Origin: Chrysiogenes arsenatis DSM 11915
Lineage (GTDB): Bacteria > Chrysiogenota > Chrysiogenetes > Chrysiogenales > Chrysiogenaceae
Assembly: GCF_000469585.1 (NCBI RefSeq)
Contig: NZ_AWNK01000005.1
Coordinates: 1-64,000 of the forward strand
Length of the DNA: 64,000 nucleotides
Direction of reading: 5' to 3'
Made by a program: the position numbers and the translations under genes
Notes under the pieces: model-generated
Seen by the model: the letters and a program-made list of their open reading frames with translations, nothing else
Database searches by the model: none
What the model was told of the DNA's origin: nothing
Shown: positions 24,434 through 36,249 of the stretch, one piece after another
Position numbering within the stretch: position 1 is the first letter of the stretch
How the letters are laid out: each line of letters opens with the position of its first letter

Positions 24434-25528
24434 TCATCGCCTGCCGCGGTACGCTCCCATAACCATCTGGCAGATTTTTTCCAGCGGGGCGATATCGTTC
24501 ACCGCTCCAATCTGAATGGCCACTTTGGGCATACCAAAAACAACCGAGGTCGCTTCGTCCTGCGCTATCGTGTAAGCACCAGCCTCTTTCATTTCCAGCA
24601 TCCCTTTGGCACCATCATCGCCCATACCGGTCATAATAACCCCAATGGCATTGGCACCAACATAGCGCGCCCCGGAACGAAAGAGAACATCAACGGATGG
24701 GCGGTGGCGACTGACCAATGGCCCGTCTTTAATTTCTACATAGTACCGCGCACCGCTCCGTTTGATCAGCATATGCTTATTGCCAGGGGCGATAATGGCA
24801 CGCCCCGGTAGAACGGTATCGCCATTTTCCCCTTCTTTCACGGTAATGCGACAGAGCGAATCGAGCCGCTCGGCAAACGATTTGGTGAAATTTTCCGGCA
24901 TGTGTTGTACGACGACAATCCCCGGCGAATCTTCGGGAAACATCTCCAAGAACACCCGCAGCGCTTCAGTGCCTCCGGTTGAAGCGCCGACCAGCACCAC
25001 TTTTTCCGTTGTTTTCGCCATCGCTTTATTTGATTCATTCCCTTTGGCGAGGATAACATCAGCGGTTAGCTTTGGCGCTACCTGCATTGGCTTAAAACGG
25101 GCGCGATGCGTCTTCATGTTCACACTGGCTGCAGCTTTTACCGTGTCACAAATACGGGTTTTCGCTTCTTCAAGGAATTGCTTCGTACCGAGTGACGGTT
25201 TTTGAATAATATCAACGGCACCATATTCGAGTGCTTTCATGAAGGTTTCGGAATTATCAATCGTCAAACTGGAACACATCACCACCGGAATCGGGTGCTG
25301 CGACATCAGCTTTTTCAGAAAGGTCAACCCGTCCATGCGCGGCATTTCGACATCCAGCGTAATCACGTCGGGCACAAATGATTCAAGTTTTTCTGTTGCC
25401 GCATACGGATCACCAGCCGTTACCACCTCGCCAATTTGCGAATCGGATTGCAGGATTTGTTGCAATGTTTGACGTACCACCGCCGAGTCATCGACCACCA
25501 GTACGTTAATTTTCCCTTTGAGCGCCAT
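24434..25528 (-). CDS. cheB: Chemotaxis methylesterase/glutamine deamidase CheB
   Basis: Removes methyl groups from chemoreceptors when phosphorylated by CheA. An N-terminal receiver (Asp59 in [12 protein letters not shown], with VVDDSAVVR) is joined by a linker to the methylesterase domain with the triad Ser in [10 protein letters not shown] (about 179), His in [10 protein letters not shown] and Asp in [11 protein letters not shown]. The ATG at 25528 follows GAGGAG and lies 2 bases after the cheD stop, so the two are coupled; a GTG two codons upstream is less likely. Confidence 0.96.
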
Positions 25529-25530
25529 GC

Positions 25531-26031
25531 TCACTCCTCCGCATGCAGACGTTGTATCCGTTTCAGGAATATCGCGCCGGTGTCGGTCGAAAAGTACAGT
25601 TTTCGTCCCAACGACCCACCAATATCCTGAGCAGAAATCCGATACCCAAGCTCATCTAACACACGCAGCGACACTTCCACATTCTGGTGACCAATAGTTT
25701 TTACGCCACGCCCAGAATCGGCGGTTTGAAACATGTCAGAGCCACCGAAAAGTTTGACTTCAACTTCCGTTCGATTGATCCCATACGATTGAAACTTTGC
25801 ATGGAGAAATTTAACGCAGCAATCAGCATACTTGTGACATTGTACACACTTATGGGTTGTTTCCTCTGTCGCTGATGGCAACATCGCATGCGTAATCCCC
25901 CCAATTTTCAGGCGGGCATTAAACATCGTCACCGCCACGCAGGAACCAAGGATGGTATGCACCACATGCGGAGTGTCAAAAACAACTCCTTGCGCTGGCT
26001 TCAAATAATATGCGTTTGAAAAATTGATCAC
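25531..26031 (-). CDS. cheD: Chemoreceptor glutamine deamidase CheD
   Basis: Deamidates receptor glutamines and tunes adaptation. The catalytic Cys31 ([10 protein letters not shown]) and His48 (GGITHAML) are present, as is the [10 protein letters not shown] segment. The GTG at 26031, giving [10 protein letters not shown], is chosen because AGAGGGGG lies 4 bases upstream; a GTG seven codons earlier is possible. Odd feature: between the catalytic loop and the next helix are five cysteines, [12 protein letters not shown] (61-72), including a CxxCH, where CheD proteins usually have a plain helix. Without a signal peptide this is not a c-type haem site; metal or redox sensing is a guess. Confidence 0.9.
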
Positions 26032-26078
26032 AGCACCCCCTCTCTGCCACACACGATGGCATCAATCACATCCCCATT

Positions 26079-26945
26079 TTATATTTTTTTATACACTGTC
26101 GGGTAACACCCGCGAAGGGGTAAATTCATTCCATTGAGCGTCTCAGAATGGCCAAGAAAAAGGTAGCCATCATCGCTCAGATGCGCAATTTGCTTGCGTA
26201 AGATAGCTTCCTGTGTTTTTTTATCAAAGTAAATAAGCACGTTACGGCAGAAAATCACGTCGAATTTTTCTTTCAAACCATACGTAGCATCCATGAAATT
26301 GAGCCGCTTAAACGATAAACGCGAACGGACTTCTGGCGCAAAACGCATTAGTTTGCGACTGCGATCTTTACTGCGCAGCATAAATTTGCGCTGGAGACTT
26401 GATGGAATTTGACTTTCTACTTTTGCCTGATCATAAATGCCTTGATGGGCTTTTTCGAGCACTTGCGTCGATATATCGGTCGCTAAAATAGAAAAATCGA
26501 TCGACGATCCATAACTGGCAAGCGCATCAAACAGCACCATCGCCAAAGTATACGGTTCTTCACCAGTGGAACATCCCGCTGACCAAACTTTAAAGATTCG
26601 TCGATTATCCCGTCGCAGCAACGGAATAATTTCTGGAATAGCGTGGCCAACGAGAAAGTCAAAATGGGCCGGTTCGCGAAAAAAGTCTGTTTTATTGGTA
26701 GTTAACACATCGATAAGTGAAATGATTTCATCTTCACCTTGTGGGGTATGAAAAACAAAATCGAGATATTCGCGATAACTGGCAAATCCGTGTTCGCGCA
26801 GCCGTTTGCGCAGCCGACCTTCAACCATTTGCCGTTTTGTGTCGCCAAGTTTAATACCACAATGCGATTCAATATACTCTTTGAGCCGTTTGAAATCTGC
26901 ATCGCTGATGTTTTCTCGAAATATTGCAAGATCGACCTCGGCCAT
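26079..26945 (-). CDS. cheR: Chemoreceptor methyltransferase CheR
   Basis: Uses S-adenosylmethionine to methylate receptor glutamates. The 288-residue protein has the N-terminal helical domain (FKRLKEYIESHCGIKLGD), then KTDFFREPAHFDFL, the SAM loop VWSAGCSTGEEPYTLAM (about 120-136), LATDIS and the FDVIFCRNVLIYFDKK segment. No TPR extension. It lies 27 bp before the next gene of the cluster in a minus-strand array, so it is probably co-transcribed with cheD and cheB. Confidence 0.96.
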   Translation of the reverse strand: MAEVDLAIFRENISDADFKRLKEYIESHCGIKLGDTKRQMVEGRLRKRLREHGFASYREYLDFVFHTPQGEDEIISLIDVLTTNKTDFFREPAHFDFLVGHAIPEIIPLLRRDNRRIFKVWSAGCSTGEEPYTLAMVLFDALASYGSSIDFSILATDISTQVLEKAHQGIYDQAKVESQIPSSLQRKFMLRSKDRSRKLMRFAPEVRSRLSFKRLNFMDATYGLKEKFDVIFCRNVLIYFDKKTQEAILRKQIAHLSDDGYLFLGHSETLNGMNLPLRGCYPTVYKKI

Positions 26946-27023
26946 TCTTACCCCTCACTCATTCGAATCTACTTAATAACTTTTACCATAAATTGCTATT
27001 TCTCCATACGCAAATTAGCCAAA

Positions 27024-27057
27024 AAGCCAAAAAAAAGAGGGGCGATATACCCCTCTA
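27024..27057 (-). terminator. Rho-independent terminator after the first chemoreceptor
   Basis: On the minus strand AGAGGGG-TATATCG-CCCCTCT is followed by a run of T residues. It lies between the receptor ending at 27078 and cheR, so cheR-cheD-cheB may be a separate transcript or depend on read-through. Confidence 0.85.
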
Positions 27058-27077
27058 TCTAATTGAAAATTTTGACA

Positions 27078-29015
27078 CTATCTGCGTGTGGCGCCCGACG
27101 CAGCCAACTGTAATTTTGTGCTTTGGTGCTCATCTCCAACCTTAAAGAAAGCAATGGTATCCTGAAGCGATTCCGCCTGACTCGAAAGTTGCTCGGATGT
27201 CGAAGCCATCTCTTCAGACGCGCCAGCATTTTGCTGAATAACCTGATCAAGTTGCTGAATCGCCTGATTGATCTGCTCCGCCCCGGTCCGCTGTTCGTTG
27301 CTGGAAGCCGTAATTTCCTGAACCAATTCCGCTGTGCGCTGAATATCAGGAATAATTTGATTCAGCAAGCTACCAGCTTTTTCGGCAATATTCACGCTGG
27401 AAGTAGAAAGCTTGATAATTTCTCCCGCCGCCTCTTGTGAACGCTCCGCCAACTTCCGTACTTCAGATGCCACCACCGCAAACCCTTTGCCGTGCTCTCC
27501 GGCACGTGCCGCTTCGATAGCCGCATTCAGTGCGAGCAGATTGGTTTGACGGGCAATCTCTTCAATAATAGAAATCTTGCTGGCAATCTCTTTCATCGCA
27601 CGCACCGTCTGCTGTACCGCTTCGCCACCATCACGAGCATCACTGGCCGCTTTCAGGGCAATTTTTTCGGTCTGCAATGCGTTATCGGCATTTTGATTGA
27701 TATTTGAAGCCATCTGCTCCATAGCCGACGAAGCCTCTTCTGCCGAAGCCGCCTGTTCAGTTGCCCCTTGGGAAAGCTGCTGCGCCGAAGAACTTAACTC
27801 CTGCGAACCTGCGGAAACATTATCCGAAGCACTCTTGACGTCGACAACGACTTGCCGCAACTTGGCAACCATTGTATTGAGGGCTGCCGCCAGCTGGCCA
27901 ATTTCATCTTTTTGATCAATATCAAGCTGCTGCGAAACGTCACCAGCAGCGATGGTTTCTGCAAAGATCACTCCTTTAGCCACTGGACGAGAAATAGCGC
28001 GGGAAAGAATAATCCCAAGCGTAATAGCCAACGCCACACCAATGAGTGAAGAGATAATAGCAATTATTTCCGCCTGCAACGCCATTGCATGCGCGTTCGC
28101 AACGGCATTTGTTGCTTGATTTTGGTTCAAATTCACTAAACGATCCATGATAGTGAGCATTTCACGCTGCTTTTCCACAACCGTAACCATAGCTTGGTGT
28201 TCCATGGCTTGATACAGGCGTGCGGCCTTTGTCGCTTCTTCAATCAACACATCGAAGGTAGCAAACGTCTGTTGTGCCGCCGGGTTAATGACGTTGCGAA
28301 ACACCTGTTGTGCTTCAACCGTTTTTCCCGCCGCAACCAGATTTTTTAACTCAGCAATGCCGTGGTGAAACGGATCGTGGCTTTGCTTCATCCCATCGAT
28401 CATGGCATTCAGTTCCTGATTCGTGGAACGGTACGTTGGCATCCACCGTCCAAAATTACATCCCGTAGGATCGGTACCACCATCAAAACTTCTGCCGGAA
28501 TACAGCAACAATAATGCATTTTCCATCACTACATGGTGATCGCCACGGAATCGCTGGAGCTGCATTGAAAGCTCAACTGGGTTGAGAATGCCATTCTTTT
28601 CTAACTCGCGCGTTAAGCGGAAAAACTCATCCACTTCTTTTACAAAAGCATTCCAAGCGGGAAGGTACTGCTGCACAAGTGCTTCCCCTTCAGCGGAGCG
28701 AGATACTTCGTTGTAACGCGCCCACGCCGCTTGATAGTCATTCATAGCGCGTTCGTAGTTTGCAAACTGCCGCTTGCGGTCTTCTTCTTTTAGGCTTGGG
28801 TTGAGGAGCGTGCGTTGTACTACGCGGATGGATTCAATCGCAGTGTCCATTTGCATGAGGTTCACAACACTCGGCATGCGTTGTTCGCCAATATAGGTCA
28901 TCTGGTTATCCATCGTATTGAGGCTGTAGAGTCCAACCATCCCAACGATGAGCGTAATCAACGCTATTACCAGAAACCCAGCGATTAACTTTACTCCAAT
29001 CCTGACATTCTTCAT
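27078..29015 (-). CDS. Methyl-accepting chemotaxis protein with CZB-like periplasmic domain
   Basis: A 645-residue transmembrane receptor: TM1 (about 11-31), a helical periplasmic region, TM2 (about 310-335), HAMP and a signalling hairpin with the tip [31 protein letters not shown]. In the periplasmic part [15 protein letters not shown], then GCNFGRWM and SHDPFHHG recall the His/Cys zinc-binding pattern of CZB domains (H...C..G.W...H..fH), so it may sense zinc or an oxidant. The signalling half is nearly identical to that of the receptor at 29557-31623. No C-terminal tethering peptide; it ends ASGATRR. Confidence 0.93.
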
Positions 29016-29036
29016 CGCACCCTCCTCAAGAGAAAA

Positions 29037-29546
29037 CTATGTTCCAGCTGCCGCCGCTTGTTCGATCGTCGTTAACTCGTTCGCCGAAAAAATCCGATTG
29101 GTATCAAGGATGATGACAAACTTCTCTTCTTGCTTCGCCATCCCTTTGATGAATTCCGTGTTCATGTTGGTGCCGATGCGCGGGGCATCTTCGATGTTTT
29201 TCCCTTCAAAATCGACCACTTCTTGTACCGAATCAGCCAGACAACCCAAGACGAGGAGTTCCCCGTCTTGCGTCACTTCCATGATGATAATGCACGAATT
29301 GACCGTTTGCTCCGTCCGCCCCATGCCAAGTTTCATTTTCAAATCGATCACCGGCACCACGTTCCCACGCAGGTTAATCACACCGCGCATAAACTCTGGC
29401 GTCCGTGGCACTTTTGTGATGACGGTGTAATCAAGTACTTCGCGCACCGACATAATTTCGACACCGAACACTTCGTCGCCCAGCCGATATGTCAACACTT
29501 GCAGCGGGACACTACTTCCTTTGGTTTCAACACTATTGGTTTGCAT
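29037..29546 (-). CDS. cheW: Chemotaxis adaptor CheW
   Basis: Couples receptors to CheA. The 169-residue single CheW domain has LTYRLGDEVFGVEI, VREVLDY, the FMRGVINLRGNVVPVIDL core and the LGCLADSVQEVVDF segment. The ATG at 29546 with AAAGGGGG upstream is preferred to an in-frame start 21 codons earlier that overlaps the preceding receptor. It sits between the two receptors and ends with an Ala-rich tail. Confidence 0.95.
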   Translation of the reverse strand: MQTNSVETKGSSVPLQVLTYRLGDEVFGVEIMSVREVLDYTVITKVPRTPEFMRGVINLRGNVVPVIDLKMKLGMGRTEQTVNSCIIIMEVTQDGELLVLGCLADSVQEVVDFEGKNIEDAPRIGTNMNTEFIKGMAKQEEKFVIILDTNRIFSANELTTIEQAAAAGT

Positions 29547-29556
29547 GGTGCCCCCT

Positions 29557-31623
29557 TTAGAACTTCTCAAATTCATCGTCAAGCTTGTCGTGCTTTCCTT
29601 TTTCATCAAGATTGATTTTCACGCCACCTTTACTGATATGCGGATTGGCAGAGCTGCTCTTTTTTGGTTCTACACGATGGACATCAAAATGGCGCCCTGA
29701 TTTTGACTTGCCATGCGAGGTACTGAGGCGCATTTTTGTACTTTGCCCTTCGTCACCCACTTTAAAGAACGCCATCGTGTCTTGCAGAGTTTCTGCTTGG
29801 CTAGATAGCTCTTCGGCGGTCGAAGCCATCTCTTCCGAAGCCCCCGCGTTCTGCTGAATAACTTGGTCAAGCTGCTGAATCGCTTGGTTGATTTGCTCCG
29901 CTCCCGTTCTTTGCTCGTTGCTGCCGGCCGAAATTTCCTGCACCAACTCCGCGTTGCGCTGAATGTCTGGGATAATCCGTTCCAGCAAGCTCCCAGCCTG
30001 CTCCGCTACTTCCACACTGCTGGTCGAAAGTTTGATGATTTCTCCCGCCGCTTCCTGCGAACGTTCGGCGAGTTTGCGGACTTCGGAAGCAACGACGGCG
30101 AACCCTTTGCCATGCTCACCAGCACGAGCCGCTTCAATCGCAGCGTTCAAGGCGAGAAGATTCGTTTGACGAGCAATTTCTTCGATAATCGAAATTTTGC
30201 TGGCGATTTCTTTCATAGCTCTGACCGTTTGTTGTACCGCTTCGCCGCCTTCACGCGCGTCGGCAGCGGCTTTCAATGCGATTTTTTCGGTTTGCAGGGC
30301 ATTATCGGCATTCTGATTGATATTAGATGCCATTTGCTCCATTGCGGACGATGCCTCTTCGGCAGAAGCGGCCTGCTCGGTCGCCCCTTGTGAAAGCTGC
30401 TGTGCCGACGAACTGAGTTCTTGCGATCCTGCTGACACGTTATCCGACGCACTCTTAACGTCAATAACCACCTGTTTCAGCTTCGCTACCATCACATTCA
30501 GCGCCGTTGCGAGTTGGCCGATTTCGTCTTTTTGATCAATATCGAGTTGCTTGGAAACGTCGCCATTGGCAATTTGCTCGGCAAATATCACACCCATCGT
30601 AACAGGGCGGACGATGCCACGAGTGATCACGATAGCGATAATCACACCAATGACCAAACCGATAGAGAGGCCGATGATCATGATCATTGAAGCACGGTTC
30701 AGGTTGACTACCGCTTCGTTCGCAATATTTTGTGTTTCATCCATCCCGACCTGGGCTGTTTTTTGTGCCGCTTCCAGTACCTTGTCGGCTACTATCTGAC
30801 GTTGTCCGCCAAGCTGCTGTAGGTCAGTCCAGTTTTTAAGGAAGGTATTCATGGCATCGCGGTAGCCATGCGCCGCAGTACGTACTGCCTGCAACTGTTG
30901 CTTATTGGCTTCAACGCGGCTCGCAGCAATCAATTCTTCGATAATTTTATCCATTTCCGGAAACAGCTTCATAGCCGCCAGCATTACTTCGGGATTACGT
31001 GTGGCCTGTGCTTGGAAATTCATACGGCGCACATCGTTGCCCAAATCAAGGATATGGTTCCCTTCTGTCACGCGGTGCTGACGGCGCAAGAGGTTATCCG
31101 CATTGTCGCCATCGGTTATTTGTTTTTTCAGCGTTTCTTCTTGGCTTTCAATAAAGGCGATTAGCTGCTCAGCAAACGTACGTGCCGTATCGTTCATCAT
31201 AATACGGTCGCGCGCCATCGCACGGATATATTCCTGAGTCTGTGCAGCAAGTCGTTCATACTCACTGACCTGAATCTGTGCTAAACGCGCGTTCTCAATC
31301 AGCCCTGGGAGTTGAAATTTTTCCCCGTGGCTTTTGGCATCAGCCAAGTACTTGTTGACTTGCGTGAGATAGTCCTGTGCCAGCTTATAATGGGCATCAT
31401 CCTCACTTACTCCATACGCACGCATATAGCCCATCGTTTGCAAAGAATACCGCTCCACGTTCGTTGCGACCGCCACTTCCGGCACATACGCCTCGGCAAG
31501 TTTTTCGGCACCATTTTGCACATCATTCATGTTGTACACAGCAATGCCACCAAGTAAAAAGGCAATCAGAATCAACGCTCCAAAACCAAAACCAATCTTT
31601 TGTCCGAGTTTCATGTTCTTCAT
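29557..31623 (-). CDS. Methyl-accepting chemotaxis protein with C-terminal tether
   Basis: A 688-residue receptor with TM1 (about 11-30), a helical periplasmic domain (to about 310), TM2 (about 311-337), HAMP, and a signalling domain almost identical to that of the receptor at 27078-29015. After the hairpin a flexible basic/polar linker of about 50 residues ends in EFEKF. This fits the aromatic-x-x-aromatic pentapeptide by which some receptors recruit CheR and CheB. The periplasmic domain has no Cys/His zinc pattern and differs from that of its twin, so the ligands probably differ. Confidence 0.94.
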
Positions 31624-31695
31624 AGTGAACTCCTTTGTCTCTTCAAAAATACATAGTGTTCTTTTGCAAAAAGCAAATATTCAGCAAGTCAACCG

Positions 31696-31855
31696 GTCAT
31701 CTCGAACGAAGTGAGAGATCTAGATTTCTTCTCGCGCTGCTCGTTCGAAATGACACCGAGTAATACACTAAAGTTATCAGATTTCTCGCCAACGCTCGAA
31801 ATGACTCAAGTGCCATGTTCAGGGATGTCAGATTTCTCGCTGACGCTCGAAGTGA
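31696..31855. repeat. Dispersed palindromic repeat, copy C (one full unit, two partial)
   Basis: 31696-31754 is a full 59-bp unit (GTCATCTCGAACGAAGTGAG ... TCGTTCGAAATGAC). As a reverse complement it differs from copy E at only one position. Two half units follow (about 31777-31804 and 31826-31855), each carrying CAGATTTCTCGC and ending CTCGAA(A/G)TGAC. They fill the gap between cheA and the receptor; no gene is seen in 31624-31885. Confidence 0.85.
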
Positions 31856-31885
31856 CACCAGCGCGAAAACAAGCGGCAGTAGCAT

Positions 31886-34012
31886 TTACTGACTTGCCAT
31901 AGGCATCTCCTCTTGGTAGCTGGCCGTCACCAGTCCCTCATATACCTTGCCAATATCGACAATCAGAGCGATGGAGCCGTCGCCAAGGATCGTTGCTCCA
32001 GAAACGCCCTGAATATGCTTAAACGATTTCCCGAGTGATTTAATAACAGTCTGGTGATCGCCGATCACGGTATCAACGACAAAGCCGGTTTTATGTCCAT
32101 CGAGTTCGGTAATCACTATCTGCTGAAACTCGGGCGCTTCGCCGCTGAGTCCGAAAAAGTCGCGCAGGCTGATGTAGGCCACGATTTCGTCTCGCACGCG
32201 AATTACGTTGCGCCCGTGGGTATTGGCAACATCGTGGCGTGTGAGTTCAATACATTCACGGACATTGGAGAGCGGGATAATGAATGACTGATCGGCGATT
32301 TTGACGAGCAGGCCGTCGATGATGGCTAATGTCAGCGGTAGGCGCAGTGACATGGTCGACCCTTTGCCTACTTCACTGGTAATTTCCACCGTGCCGCGCA
32401 TGGCGTCGATGTTTCGTTTTACAACGTCCATGCCGACGCCCCGCCCCGAAACGCTGGATACTTTTTCGCTGGTCGAAAATCCGGGTGCGAGGATGAGGTC
32501 AAAGATTTCTTTGCGGCTGAGTTCGGCATGTTCGCCAATCATCCCTTTTTGAATCGCTTTGGCGCGGATCACGTCGGGATCAATCCCTTTGCCATCATCG
32601 ATAATCTGTATCAGGACGCTATCGCCGGAGTGTTTGGCAGAAAGGAGGATTTTTCCGGCGCGCGGCTTGCCAGCGGCTTCGCGCACCGCGGGCATTTCGA
32701 TGCCGTGATCAAGGCTGTTGCGGATGAGGTGAACCAATGGGTCGTTCAGTTTTTCTATAACGGTTTTATCGAGTTCGGTCTCTTCGCCTTCGGTAACAAG
32801 GTCGATTTCTTTGCCAAGATCACGCGATAGGTCGCGCACTAAGCGGCGGAATTTATTGAAGATGGTGCCGATTGGCAGCATGCGAATGCTGATGGTGTTA
32901 TCGCGCAGTGCCCAGACGAGTCGTTCGACTTCTTCGGCGAGTTTGGTCATTTCGGGATCATTTTCCTGCACGGCGGTTTGTGTCAAGCGTGCTTGCACGG
33001 TGACGAGTTCGCCGACGAGGTCAACCAGAATGTCGAGTTTATCGGAAGGGACGCGGATCGAAGCAATTGCTTCGGCTTCGCCTTTTTTCTCGCGCGCTTC
33101 TTGGATGTGTTTTTGCTCTTGCACGGCTGCTTCGACCACCGAAGGTTGCACGAGTCCTTTTTCGATCAGCATTTCGCCGATGAGTTTGCGCGACTGCATG
33201 ACGGCGTCAAGCTCTTCGCGCGAGATGTCCCCTTTTTCAACGAGAATATCGCCAATCCGCTTGATGTGGACTTCGCCATCGTCATCGCTCATGCGGTCGA
33301 TGACGTCGATATGCAAATCGCAATCGTCTTCGACAAAGATAAACACATCGCGCAGGGCGTTGATGTCTTTTTCTGTCGAAAGGAGAATATCCCAATAGAT
33401 GTAGCACTTATCGGTATCGATTGTTGCAAGGTCAGGAATAGCATTGCTGTGGGCAATCACCTTGGCGTACCCCATAGCATTGAGTTCATCGAGTAAAAGG
33501 ACAGGATTGACGCCGTGCAGGAAAATATCAGCATGCGGCTTAAAGCGGATGCGGTACGTGGTGAGGTCTTCCGAGGTGGGCTTTTGCTCTTTTTTGGTGG
33601 GGCTTTGTGGTTTGGGCGCTGCTTCGGCATGTTCCGTTTTCGCTCGCGTAAAACCACGAAAGAAGCGGAGGATTCCCGCCGCGGCGGGATCATCGAGTGT
33701 AATAGAGTCGTCTTCCAACATCCGCTTAATCACGTCTGTTGAAGTCAACGATTGGTCAATAATCGCCTGACTTACCTGCAGTTTTCCCCCACGCACCAAG
33801 TCGTATGCCGTTTCAATGTCGTGCACAAATTCAGAAAGGGTCTTGAAGCCAAACATGGCTCCCGACCCTTTAATGGTGTGCATGGCACGAAATATTTTGC
33901 CGACCACTTCCATGTCGTCGGGCGTGTTTTCGAGTTCGAGCAGTGAACTTTCAAGGACTTCCAGCAGTTCGTAGGCTTCTTGCTTGAATACCTCTTGCGG
34001 ATTTTCCATCAT
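31886..34012 (-). CDS. cheA: Chemotaxis histidine kinase CheA
   Basis: The central kinase, phosphorylating CheY and CheB. The 708 residues comprise an Hpt domain (His45 in MHTIKGSG), a P2-like region (about 135-235, YRIRFKPHADIFLHGVNP), two short repeats (IGDILVEKGDI.. and IGEMLIEKGLV.., about 252-296) like the LGeiLve.G repeats of MshE-type N-domains, then the dimerisation helices, an ATPase domain (NSLDHGIE, DDGKGID, GRGVGMDVV) and a C-terminal CheW-like domain. The ATG at 34012 follows GGGGTAG, 4 bases after the cheY stop. Confidence 0.96.
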   Translation of the reverse strand: MMENPQEVFKQEAYELLEVLESSLLELENTPDDMEVVGKIFRAMHTIKGSGAMFGFKTLSEFVHDIETAYDLVRGGKLQVSQAIIDQSLTSTDVIKRMLEDDSITLDDPAAAGILRFFRGFTRAKTEHAEAAPKPQSPTKKEQKPTSEDLTTYRIRFKPHADIFLHGVNPVLLLDELNAMGYAKVIAHSNAIPDLATIDTDKCYIYWDILLSTEKDINALRDVFIFVEDDCDLHIDVIDRMSDDDGEVHIKRIGDILVEKGDISREELDAVMQSRKLIGEMLIEKGLVQPSVVEAAVQEQKHIQEAREKKGEAEAIASIRVPSDKLDILVDLVGELVTVQARLTQTAVQENDPEMTKLAEEVERLVWALRDNTISIRMLPIGTIFNKFRRLVRDLSRDLGKEIDLVTEGEETELDKTVIEKLNDPLVHLIRNSLDHGIEMPAVREAAGKPRAGKILLSAKHSGDSVLIQIIDDGKGIDPDVIRAKAIQKGMIGEHAELSRKEIFDLILAPGFSTSEKVSSVSGRGVGMDVVKRNIDAMRGTVEITSEVGKGSTMSLRLPLTLAIIDGLLVKIADQSFIIPLSNVRECIELTRHDVANTHGRNVIRVRDEIVAYISLRDFFGLSGEAPEFQQIVITELDGHKTGFVVDTVIGDHQTVIKSLGKSFKHIQGVSGATILGDGSIALIVDIGKVYEGLVTASYQEEMPMASQ

Positions 34013-34016
34013 GGCA

Positions 34017-34382
34017 CTACCCCAGTACTTTTTTGACAACTGCTAGTAATTGCTCCGGTTGAAATGGTTTCACAATCCAGCCGGTCGCTCCGGCGGCTTT
34101 GCCCTCTTGTTTTTTGCCATCTTGTGATTCTGTTGTCAGCATTACCATCGGGACAAATTTGTAATTCGGCAACGCCCGCAGCGAGCGAATTAACGCTATA
34201 CCATCCATATTCGGCATGTTCAGGTCGGTAATCACCATATCAAACTTCTTGGCAGAAGCTTTGGCAAGGCCATCTTTACCATCCACCGCTTCTTCGACGT
34301 TATAGCCCGCTTGCTTGAGAGTGAATTTTACCATCTGACGAATGCTGGCAGAGTCGTCGACACTTAAAATTGTTTTTGACAT
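34017..34382 (-). CDS. cheY: Chemotaxis response regulator CheY
   Basis: A 121-residue single receiver domain: acidic pair Asp9/Asp10, phospho-acceptor Asp53 in MVITDLNMPNMDG, conserved Thr/Ser in VMLTTES and the Lys-Pro pair in IVKPFQPE. Phosphorylated by CheA and expected to act at the flagellar motor. It lies directly upstream of cheA. Confidence 0.95.
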   Translation of the reverse strand: MSKTILSVDDSASIRQMVKFTLKQAGYNVEEAVDGKDGLAKASAKKFDMVITDLNMPNMDGIALIRSLRALPNYKFVPMVMLTTESQDGKKQEGKAAGATGWIVKPFQPEQLLAVVKKVLG

Positions 34383-34751
34383 CTATAAACCTCCTTCAAC
34401 GCTCTCTATATATTTCCATAAACATGTTTTATCAATCTGGGCAGTACAACCGGCGCAACTCGCAAAGCCAGAACGGGACGCCAAGTCGTTCAGCGCTGGT
34501 AGGAGCGGTGCTTTCATGGTAATCCGCTTATTGAGTTCTTCGGCACTGCGGTGCGACGCGCACAAAAGCTGAATGAGGCTGATATCCACCTGCGATTCCG
34601 GCACAAAGTCGACTGTTACACTGTGCAAACTGGCCTGCACCGCCTCAAGCAGTGCTTCGCGAGCTTGGCCAATATTTTCTATGGTAATTTCCCCACCGAG
34701 GCTGACAGTGGTGTTCCCATCGTTTTCATGGATCACTTGCGCATGGATCAT
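34383..34751 (-). CDS. STAS-domain protein in the chemotaxis cluster
   Basis: A 122-residue STAS (SpoIIAA-like) protein, VIHENDGNTTVSLGGEITIEN then DISLIQLLCASHRSAEEL. In sigma-factor antagonists the loop holds a phosphorylatable Ser in DSSG; here DIS keeps one Ser but not the motif. A C-terminal cluster SCAGCTAQIDKTC could bind metal or form disulphides. The ATG at 34751 is chosen for the GGAGGA site 8 bases upstream. It is first in an array with cheY and cheA. STAS proteins of this sort recur in che operons but the role is unclear. Confidence 0.85.
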   Translation of the reverse strand: MIHAQVIHENDGNTTVSLGGEITIENIGQAREALLEAVQASLHSVTVDFVPESQVDISLIQLLCASHRSAEELNKRITMKAPLLPALNDLASRSGFASCAGCTAQIDKTCLWKYIESVEGGL

Positions 34752-34818
34752 GGTCGTCTCCTCCATATTTTCTCGCCACTGACTTTTCCTTTGCCATGAG
34801 GCGTTGCAGTATCCACCT

Positions 34819-34877
34819 GTCATCGCGAACGGAGTGAGAGATCAAGATTTCTCCTCGCGATGCTCGTTCGAAATGAC
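34819..34877. repeat. Dispersed palindromic repeat, copy D
   Basis: A full 59-bp unit, GTCATCGCGAACGGAGTGAG ... TCGTTCGAAATGAC, with a few changes from copies C1 and E. It lies between the receptor-like gene and the STAS gene. Confidence 0.85.
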
Positions 34878-34914
34878 ATACGGACAGCAGAACACTGCCC
34901 TTCACAGAATGCGG

Positions 34915-36249
34915 TTAAAACAGTTCCACATTGTCGCCGAGATCTGCCGCTTTCGGCTCAGGCTTCGGCTTCTGCGGTTTTGGTTGCGCTGCTGGGGCTT
35001 TCGCAGGTTTTGCTGGCTCGTCACCCCAAAGGTCTGGTTCTGGATGGTGCGTAGCAGCGACTGGTGCAGCAGCTTGATGTCCAGCGTGCTTCTTTTCGAG
35101 TAAGACCCGTTCTGATTCCATGGTGTAAATTTCTTTCAGCCACTGGTTCAAATCTTCTTCGTCTATATCGCTTTTTAGTTCTTCAATATGCTTCAGGTTC
35201 GCAGCAATTTTCACCAGCTCGCCCTGAATCTTTTCTAGTGGCTGCATGACGTGTTCCAGCCGTTGGCGATTGATATCTTGGAACTGCATAGAAACAACGA
35301 TCATGCCAATATCGTTGGCAAGTTCGTTGGTTTCGCTGGCAAGTTCGGTCATCATCATGCCGGAAACTTTAATCCCGACATCAATTTTTTCCAGTGATCC
35401 TATCACCGCTTCTTCGGCATCTTTTGTGGCGTGCTCAACTTTTTCAGATTCGGATATTGCCAGCGTATACACGCCGCGCATTTCGTCGGTTATTTGATTG
35501 ATGGCGGTTTTAATATCGAGCGCAAAGCGGTTGGATTGCTCCGATAACTTTCGCACTTCATCAGCTACTACAGCGAATCCGCGACCATGTTCTCCGGCGC
35601 GCGCCGCTTCGATAGCGGCATTGAGCGCAAGTAAATTTGTTTGGTCGGCAATTTCACCAACCTGTCCCACAATGGAATTGATTTTTTCCGACCGCTTCAT
35701 AAGAACATCAAGGTTCGAGCATATTTTTGTCGTGAAAAGTCCCGACTGTTTCAAGTCTTCAATGATGCGGTGCATGGAACCTTTGACGTTATCCATGATC
35801 CCTTCCATCAGACCATCATCATCTGTATTATTGGAGGTAATCAATTCAGAAAAGGCACTTTCTGCCTTTTTTGATTGCGATTGCGCCCGATCAATAATAT
35901 CCCCAAAGCGAGTCCCTATGGACTCAATCGCCGATCCGCTATCATCGATAACTTCTTGGATTTGCGCGTTAATGACGGGAACCAATTCTGCCCGTTGATG
36001 GAGGATATTATAGATAGGGGTGAGCACTTCGTGTATACGCTCGAAGATCCCTGCTTCCGCCTGTTCTTTCTCTTGCACCACCTTTTTGCGATAGTCGCGC
36101 ATGAGGAGGAAAAGCACAAGAATAGTAGCAACTAGCACCACCAAACTACACGACACGCGAAGTGCCATATCAGATAAAAACATGAGCCCGAATTGGCTTA
36201 TCCCAAGGATAATAAGTAGCGCTATCTTAACTGGACTGGCATACAGCAT
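34915..36249 (-). CDS. Receptor-like signalling protein with CheZ-like motif
   Basis: A 444-residue membrane protein: two close membrane helices (about 5-27 and 30-52) with almost no periplasmic loop and no HAMP, a coiled coil, then a chemoreceptor hairpin tip [31 protein letters not shown] (about 198-228). Downstream comes [19 protein letters not shown] (about 318-336), where FQDINRQ matches the FQD(L/I)TGQ active-site helix of CheZ phosphatases. An Ala/Pro/Lys linker of about 40 residues then leads to a terminal GDNVELF, reminiscent of CheZ's linker plus C-terminal CheY-binding tail. No CheZ, CheC or CheX gene is in the cluster, so this protein may dephosphorylate CheY-P. Receptor identity is clear; phosphatase function is inference. 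Confidence 0.85.

Follow-up and report, generated by a model that had tools for sequence, protein, structure and literature searches.

A chemoreceptor-shaped candidate CheY-P phosphatase at the head of a cheZ-less che cluster in Chrysiogenes arsenatis

The che cluster and the architecture of McpZ

In this work, we have analysed a stretch of 64,000 nucleotides from Chrysiogenes arsenatis DSM 11915 (contig NZ_AWNK01000005.1, positions 1 to 64,000; hereafter the window), which carries a chemosensory cluster at 24434..36249. All genes of the cluster lie on the minus strand, in the order McpZ-STAS-CheY-CheA-MCP-CheW-MCP-CheR-CheD-CheB, and CheZ, CheC and CheX were not found within these limits. McpZ is the name used here for the product of the first gene. 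The features of the locus are the following:

34915..36249, minus strand: McpZ, an open reading frame of 444 aa (ORF list; Pfam MCPsignal and a weak CheZ match; relatives)
36100..36228, minus strand: two adjacent TM helices of McpZ, residues about 8-50 (read from the sequence)
35524..35643, minus strand: receptor hairpin tip of McpZ, residues 203-242, of canonical sequence
35263..35283, minus strand: CheZ-like active-site helix FQDINRQ of McpZ, residues 323-329 (alignment, profile comparison, heptad phase)
35107..35127, minus strand: conserved YTMESER motif of McpZ, residues 375-381 (alignments of relatives)
34936..35082, minus strand: Pro/Ala/Lys-rich linker of McpZ, residues 390-438, predicted to be disordered (sequence; no secondary structure there in the structure model)
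34918..34935, minus strand: C-terminal tail DNVELF of McpZ, proposed CheY-docking peptide (conserved across variable linkers; found together with QxxDxxxQ in the slot test)
34383..34823, minus strand: STAS-domain protein of the anti-sigma-factor-antagonist type, the next gene after McpZ (PF13466, E 2.5e-10)
34017..34382, minus strand: CheY, proposed substrate of McpZ (PF00072, E 1.4e-28; McpZ-CheY neighbourhood conserved)
31886..34039, minus strand: CheA kinase of the cluster (Hpt, H-kinase_dim, HATPase_c and CheW domains)
29557..31623, minus strand: ordinary MCP with HAMP (Pfam)
29037..29609, minus strand: CheW
27078..29015, minus strand: ordinary MCP with HAMP (Pfam)
26079..26945, minus strand: CheR
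25531..26052, minus strand: CheD
24434..25534, minus strand: CheB

Two neighbours of McpZ have features of their own. The MCP at 29557-31623 (minus strand) carries a long linker and the C-terminus LDDEFEKF, in which EFEKF fits the CheR-tether consensus x-[HFYW]-x2-[HFYW]. The CheA at 31886-34039 (minus strand) has at residues about 255-310 the tandem stretches RIGDILVEKGDISREELDAVMQ and IGEMLIEKGLVQPSVVEAAVQEQ, which we take to recall the c-di-GMP-binding motif of MshEN/GspE N-terminal domains; these stretches received no Pfam call.

The sequence-only reading of this locus had described a chemoreceptor hairpin followed by FQDINRQ and a terminal GDNVELF, and our results agree with it: the coordinates of the ORF stand, the MCPsignal domain (PF00015) spans residues 174-318 with an E of 3.2e-34, the signalling hairpin with its conserved tip is present, and the C-terminus is GDNVELF. 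The TM helices occupy residues about 8-27 and 30-50 and are separated by a loop of a few residues, so that McpZ has no periplasmic sensor. Neither a ligand-binding domain nor HAMP was detected in the Pfam scan of the protein. The second Pfam match is CheZ (PF04344), a weak one that aligns residues 290-360 with CheZ 94-164, including the CheZ active site, and scores 12.0-14.1 bits (16.8 for the C-terminal half alone), below the curated cut-off of 30.7. The 17-residue stretch around FQDINRQ corresponds to residues 319-335, and the motif itself is located in the ascending helix of the receptor hairpin. Three features, each seen in McpZ only (1/22), set it apart from the other MCPs of this genome: an FQDINRQ-type motif, a PF04344 match at E<=10 and a cheY nearby. 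A search for related loci on the genome's own contigs retrieved one ordinary MCP (L037).

Likeness of the FQDINRQ helix to the CheZ active site

Our analyses show that the stretch FQDINRQ matches the catalytic helix of CheZ, as had been claimed before. In the numbering of E. coli CheZ, verified on the protein itself, the counterparts of D325 and Q329 of McpZ are D143 and Q147. In hhalign the profile of the C-terminal half matched the CheZ profile at 95.9% probability (E 6e-9), the D and Q positions coinciding; a control profile of the 21 ordinary MCPs that this genome also encodes gave 2.4%. Column-shuffled profiles scored at most 17.6 against CheZ versus 60.2 for the real profile, and the match stayed at 94.5% when McpZ itself and the phylum-mates of its family (f2) were left out; the six most distant relatives alone gave 31%. 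In the reverse direction, a CheZ-free profile (A1) run on other genomes retrieved short proteins, of which 9 of the 10 scanned were CheZ above the Pfam cut-off. The family members score individually about 10-23 bits against CheZ, all below the cut-off of 30.7, and CheZ is the Pfam family that matches most of them (10 of 13; the next family matches 5). NCBIfam Phos_CheZ matches one relative (L117), and a sequence search of the PDB with the family profile returned coiled coils only. A chance occurrence of the motif in a coiled coil was considered and is rejected by its conservation and by the column shuffles.

How much of CheZ is present in McpZ? Masking seven motif columns lowered the CheZ match to 25%, and masking twenty to 6%. 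Since masking removes the match, the likeness is confined to the active-site helix, about 20 residues, and does not extend to the whole CheZ domain; common descent with CheZ goes beyond what a match of this length can support. A full CheZ domain fused onto the receptor is thus rejected, as nothing is left once about 20 columns are masked. The earlier view of a CheZ part joined on behind a receptor has to be given up for the same reason, and the helix belongs to the receptor's own ascending helix.

The two catalytic positions have the same helical phase in both proteins: in McpZ as in E. coli CheZ, D lies at +111 and Q at +163 degrees from the hydrophobic face. Judged by this phase, which equals that of D143 and Q147, D325 and Q329 should be exposed. 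The single-sequence AlphaFold model of McpZ (pLDDT 51) is too poor to judge their burial.

Conservation of the helix, the tail and the gene context

In the relatives from the same phylum (family f2), the helix is always YQDINRQ and the protein always ends in DNVELF, with linkers that differ. When 27 sequences, with relatives from several phyla among them, were aligned and weighted (effective number 16), Q322, D325 and Q329 were the only invariant columns outside the tip, and the same three columns are invariant in the 13-sequence alignment A1. D-x3-Q is present in 56/56 distinct relatives (variants FQD, YQD, FHD, FSD, FED and LQD) and a [VIL]-x-[LFY]-F tail ends 53 of them (52 by the V/I search pattern, plus L051 with DNLVFF), counts that are biased because the searches that found these proteins used the motif region. 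Two plasmid-borne relatives, in Aeromonas sp. BC14 and Pseudomonas sp. HR96, read FQDRVSQ...ADVTFF and FQDRVSQ...NDITFF, respectively. One genome with a fragment-only match (G093) was left out.

Most membrane-type relatives have two TM helices. In others the receptor tip has decayed and the helix is kept, as SLQFQDITRQ in G067 and G136 and as SIQFQDITRQ in G114; these three lack a DNVELF-type tail. In many clusters the McpZ slot is filled by soluble proteins of 520-1000 aa with no TM helix, built of degenerate MCP-like hairpins with FHDITRQ and GDNVELF. The feature common to the membrane, decayed-tip and soluble forms is the helix and not the receptor part. Three loci (L067, L101 and L100) have the CheZ-like helix intact, the receptor tip decayed and no GDNVELF tail, and P0002, L124 and L131 are weakly similar to the BB0569 family chemotaxis protein of NCBIfam, with E from 4e-8 to 6e-4.

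Could the helix be a degenerate relic, descended from a CheZ active site and no longer acting? The presence of a canonical CheZ elsewhere in the genome would allow it, but D and Q are strictly invariant across phyla, together with the tail, and we consider this highly improbable.

The tail had been compared to the CheY-binding tail of CheZ, a likeness that we do not find. CheZ tails are of the DQNLVDELLKEFG type, with the pattern D/N-Q-x-L-V-D-E-L-L-K-E-F-G, whereas DNVELF has no amphipathic CheY-binding peptide of this kind; the sequences are dissimilar and GDNVELF is a separate conserved motif. Nor does NVELF fit the consensus x-[HFYW]-x(2)-[HFYW] for tethering of CheR/CheB (PMC7184735): it has Val at position 2, where an aromatic residue is needed, and this sets DNVELF outside the CheR/CheB pentapeptides. 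This point bears on the reading of McpZ as an ordinary McpA-like chemoreceptor, in which the helix would serve packing or adaptation and the tail would tether CheR/CheB as the NWETF pentapeptide does. The canonical tip, the long linker that ends in a short acidic/aromatic tail, an arrangement known from CheR-tethering receptors, and the co-purification of Shewanella McpA with CheA3 (PMC9855816) would fit with an ordinary receptor. However, McpZ has neither a periplasmic domain nor HAMP, its motif is absent from the 21 other MCPs of the genome, and the helix is kept in relatives with a decayed tip or no TM helix. Moreover, Val or Ile takes the place of the pentapeptide aromatic, and PMC7184735 describes a P. 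aeruginosa McpA that has Val there and does not bind CheR. We therefore hold an ordinary receptor to be quite unlikely.

The gene context was followed in 38 clusters with a McpZ gene, from two plasmids and from the phyla of the window, of G067 and of G073, the last being large and presumably Pseudomonadota to judge by UbiG. These clusters share descent, and counts over them are not independent. None of the 38 clusters contains cheZ, and the McpZ gene adjoins cheY or STAS-cheY in 37 of them; CheA intervenes in the remaining one. In a motif-blind test, clusters were located by the CheA of the window, and upstream of each cheA the first long ORF was taken regardless of its identity. This slot yielded 64 ORFs, 30 with the tail and 34 without, from clusters related by descent, so that the counts are not independent, and most of the proteins are of the soluble type, unlike the membrane type of the window. 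QxxDxxxQ is present in 29 of the 30 tail-bearing proteins, the thirtieth (L188) being cut by a contig end, and in one of the 34 tail-less ones, an ordinary MCP. In control clusters of other CheA classes, neither motif nor tail was found (0/17 for each). Some 'McpZ' labels given to control clusters belong to long CheZ proteins (FQDLTGQ) or to a regex false match. The putative active-site helix and the tail thus occur coupled.

McpZ is not a constant companion of cheY-STAS-cheA clusters: its presence in every one of them is rejected, as most of the sampled clusters with a CheA of only 35-46% identity lack it. Three clusters with a distant CheA (L215, L217 and L218) encode, upstream of cheY-cheA and with STAS between in 2/3, soluble proteins of 553-557 aa with QTHDIVNQ and tails of the GLTFF, LTFF or LTLF type, possibly a further, more distant form of the McpZ family. 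In one cluster (L062:5165-7279, G034) cheA is broken into three ORFs, through decay or a sequencing error.

Proposed role of McpZ and comparison with known systems

We propose that McpZ is probably a CheY-P phosphatase, anchored in the membrane, shaped like a receptor and dedicated to the CheY of its cluster, and that its relatives are probably the built-in off-switch of cheZ-less che clusters. The chemistry is proposed on the precedent of CheZ, and CheY as the substrate on gene order. McpZ would form the usual MCP dimer, in which two hairpins make a four-helix bundle, and the ascending helix would present D325 and Q329 on the outward face of the stalk. D325 would touch the lysine that is conserved in CheY, and Q329 would position a water molecule for attack within the active site of CheY, with loss of the phosphoryl group. 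CheY, encoded two genes away, would be captured by the mobile linker together with DNVELF, the latter as a docking peptide, and delivered to this site, so that McpZ would do the work of the cheZ that its chemosensory cluster lacks. The receptor tip may hold McpZ in the signalling array, and termination would then occur at the source. Were McpZ part of the array, the state of the receptors might modulate its activity, and one protein could couple array input to termination.

In the CheZ-like helix, [FY]QD-x3-Q, the catalytic Asp and Gln and their heptad phase are shared with CheZ, as are the flexible linker, the short C-terminal peptide and the location of the gene beside cheY; a hairpin dimer is expected in McpZ too. 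In contrast to CheZ, the helix lies within an MCP hairpin that is anchored in the membrane and has a receptor tip, the family has an additional invariant Gln, Q322, where CheZ varies, DNVELF replaces the CheZ tail and the score is below the Pfam cut-off. McpZ would thus represent CheZ chemistry on a receptor scaffold, a variant of the known CheZ. CheC, CheX and FliY are also CheY-P phosphatases; their fold differs from that of CheZ and they use ExxN chemistry.

The nearest published receptors are the McpA-like ones (PA0180/CttP, VCA1088 and SO_2117), which are described in PMC7184735, PMC7534058 and PMC9855816 as TM-anchored, of uncertain class and encoded in F7 clusters with cheY and no cheZ; the McpA proteins cluster with the F6 array. 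According to PMC7184735, their C-terminus is highly conserved with Val at pentapeptide position 2, its role is described as unclear and McpA does not bind CheR. Compared with these descriptions, McpZ is alike in its TM anchor, its odd or uncertain heptad class, its cluster with cheY and no cheZ and its Val-bearing C-terminus, whereas its cluster differs in having the gene order published for F8, with STAS and CheY before CheA (PMC9855816). By gene order only, McpZ also resembles the first F8 receptor, so_2317 of the S. oneidensis che2 cluster, which according to the same paper precedes CheY, STAS, CheA, MCP, CheW, CheR, CheD and CheB and is interrupted in MR-1. The excerpts of the three papers contain no mention of a CheZ motif in a receptor, and a report of such a motif in a chemoreceptor was not found among open-licence papers.

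A broader proposal is that cheZ-less chemosensory systems have as their dedicated off-switch a widespread and unnamed second architecture of CheZ-type phosphatase, built on a chemoreceptor hairpin, either membrane-anchored or in the form of soluble tandem hairpins; we put this forward tentatively and rate it slightly below an even chance. Clusters of the McpZ type have CheY and no known way of switching it off. If true, the presence of a CheZ active site on a receptor would explain how CheY is shut off and would shift the termination of the signal to the array; it may also account for the C-terminal conservation seen in McpA-like receptors. In automated annotation the relatives of McpZ are labelled 'methyl-accepting chemotaxis protein', so a phosphatase of this kind would be missed in many genomes.

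The sequence-only reading had also stated that no other CheY-P phosphatase was present. This is true of the cluster and fails for the genome: a search for cheZ, cheC and cheX found all of them outside the cluster, an outcome that the earlier reading had itself named as speaking against a phosphatase. A genome without phosphatase is accordingly rejected. The genome encodes a canonical CheZ (L003), in a CheY-CheZ-CheA cluster (L003/L069), the CheZ-like proteins L001 and L002, CheX (L030) and CheC (L034). These proteins could serve the CheY of the window as well; their presence is compatible with a dedicated phosphatase for it.

The other phosphatases would also suit a McpZ that acts as an anchor or sink, in which helix and tail hold CheY or CheY-P at the array as scaffold or insulation and do not accelerate dephosphorylation. 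The tail alone could dock CheY, and the gene context and the coupling of motif and tail are equally expected of an anchor. The Gln is invariant, however, while its neighbours vary (FQD, FHD, FSD, THD, MHD), and in CheZ this Gln is needed for catalysis, not for binding. We consider an anchor or sink unlikely and favour the phosphatase.

Two of the CheZ-like proteins of the genome have a character of their own. L002:1492-3303 (contig C3 near 165063) encodes more than 600 aa with acidic repeats, a C-terminal CheZ module with LEFQDITKQ and a CheZ-type tail, AIDALLREMGLD, and similar proteins of 550-700 aa are present in relatives. The protein at L001:1033-1992 (contig C5 near 178025) has 319 aa, matches NCBIfam Phos_CheZ with an E of 2e-27 and is encoded directly upstream of the gene for a J-domain-like protein.
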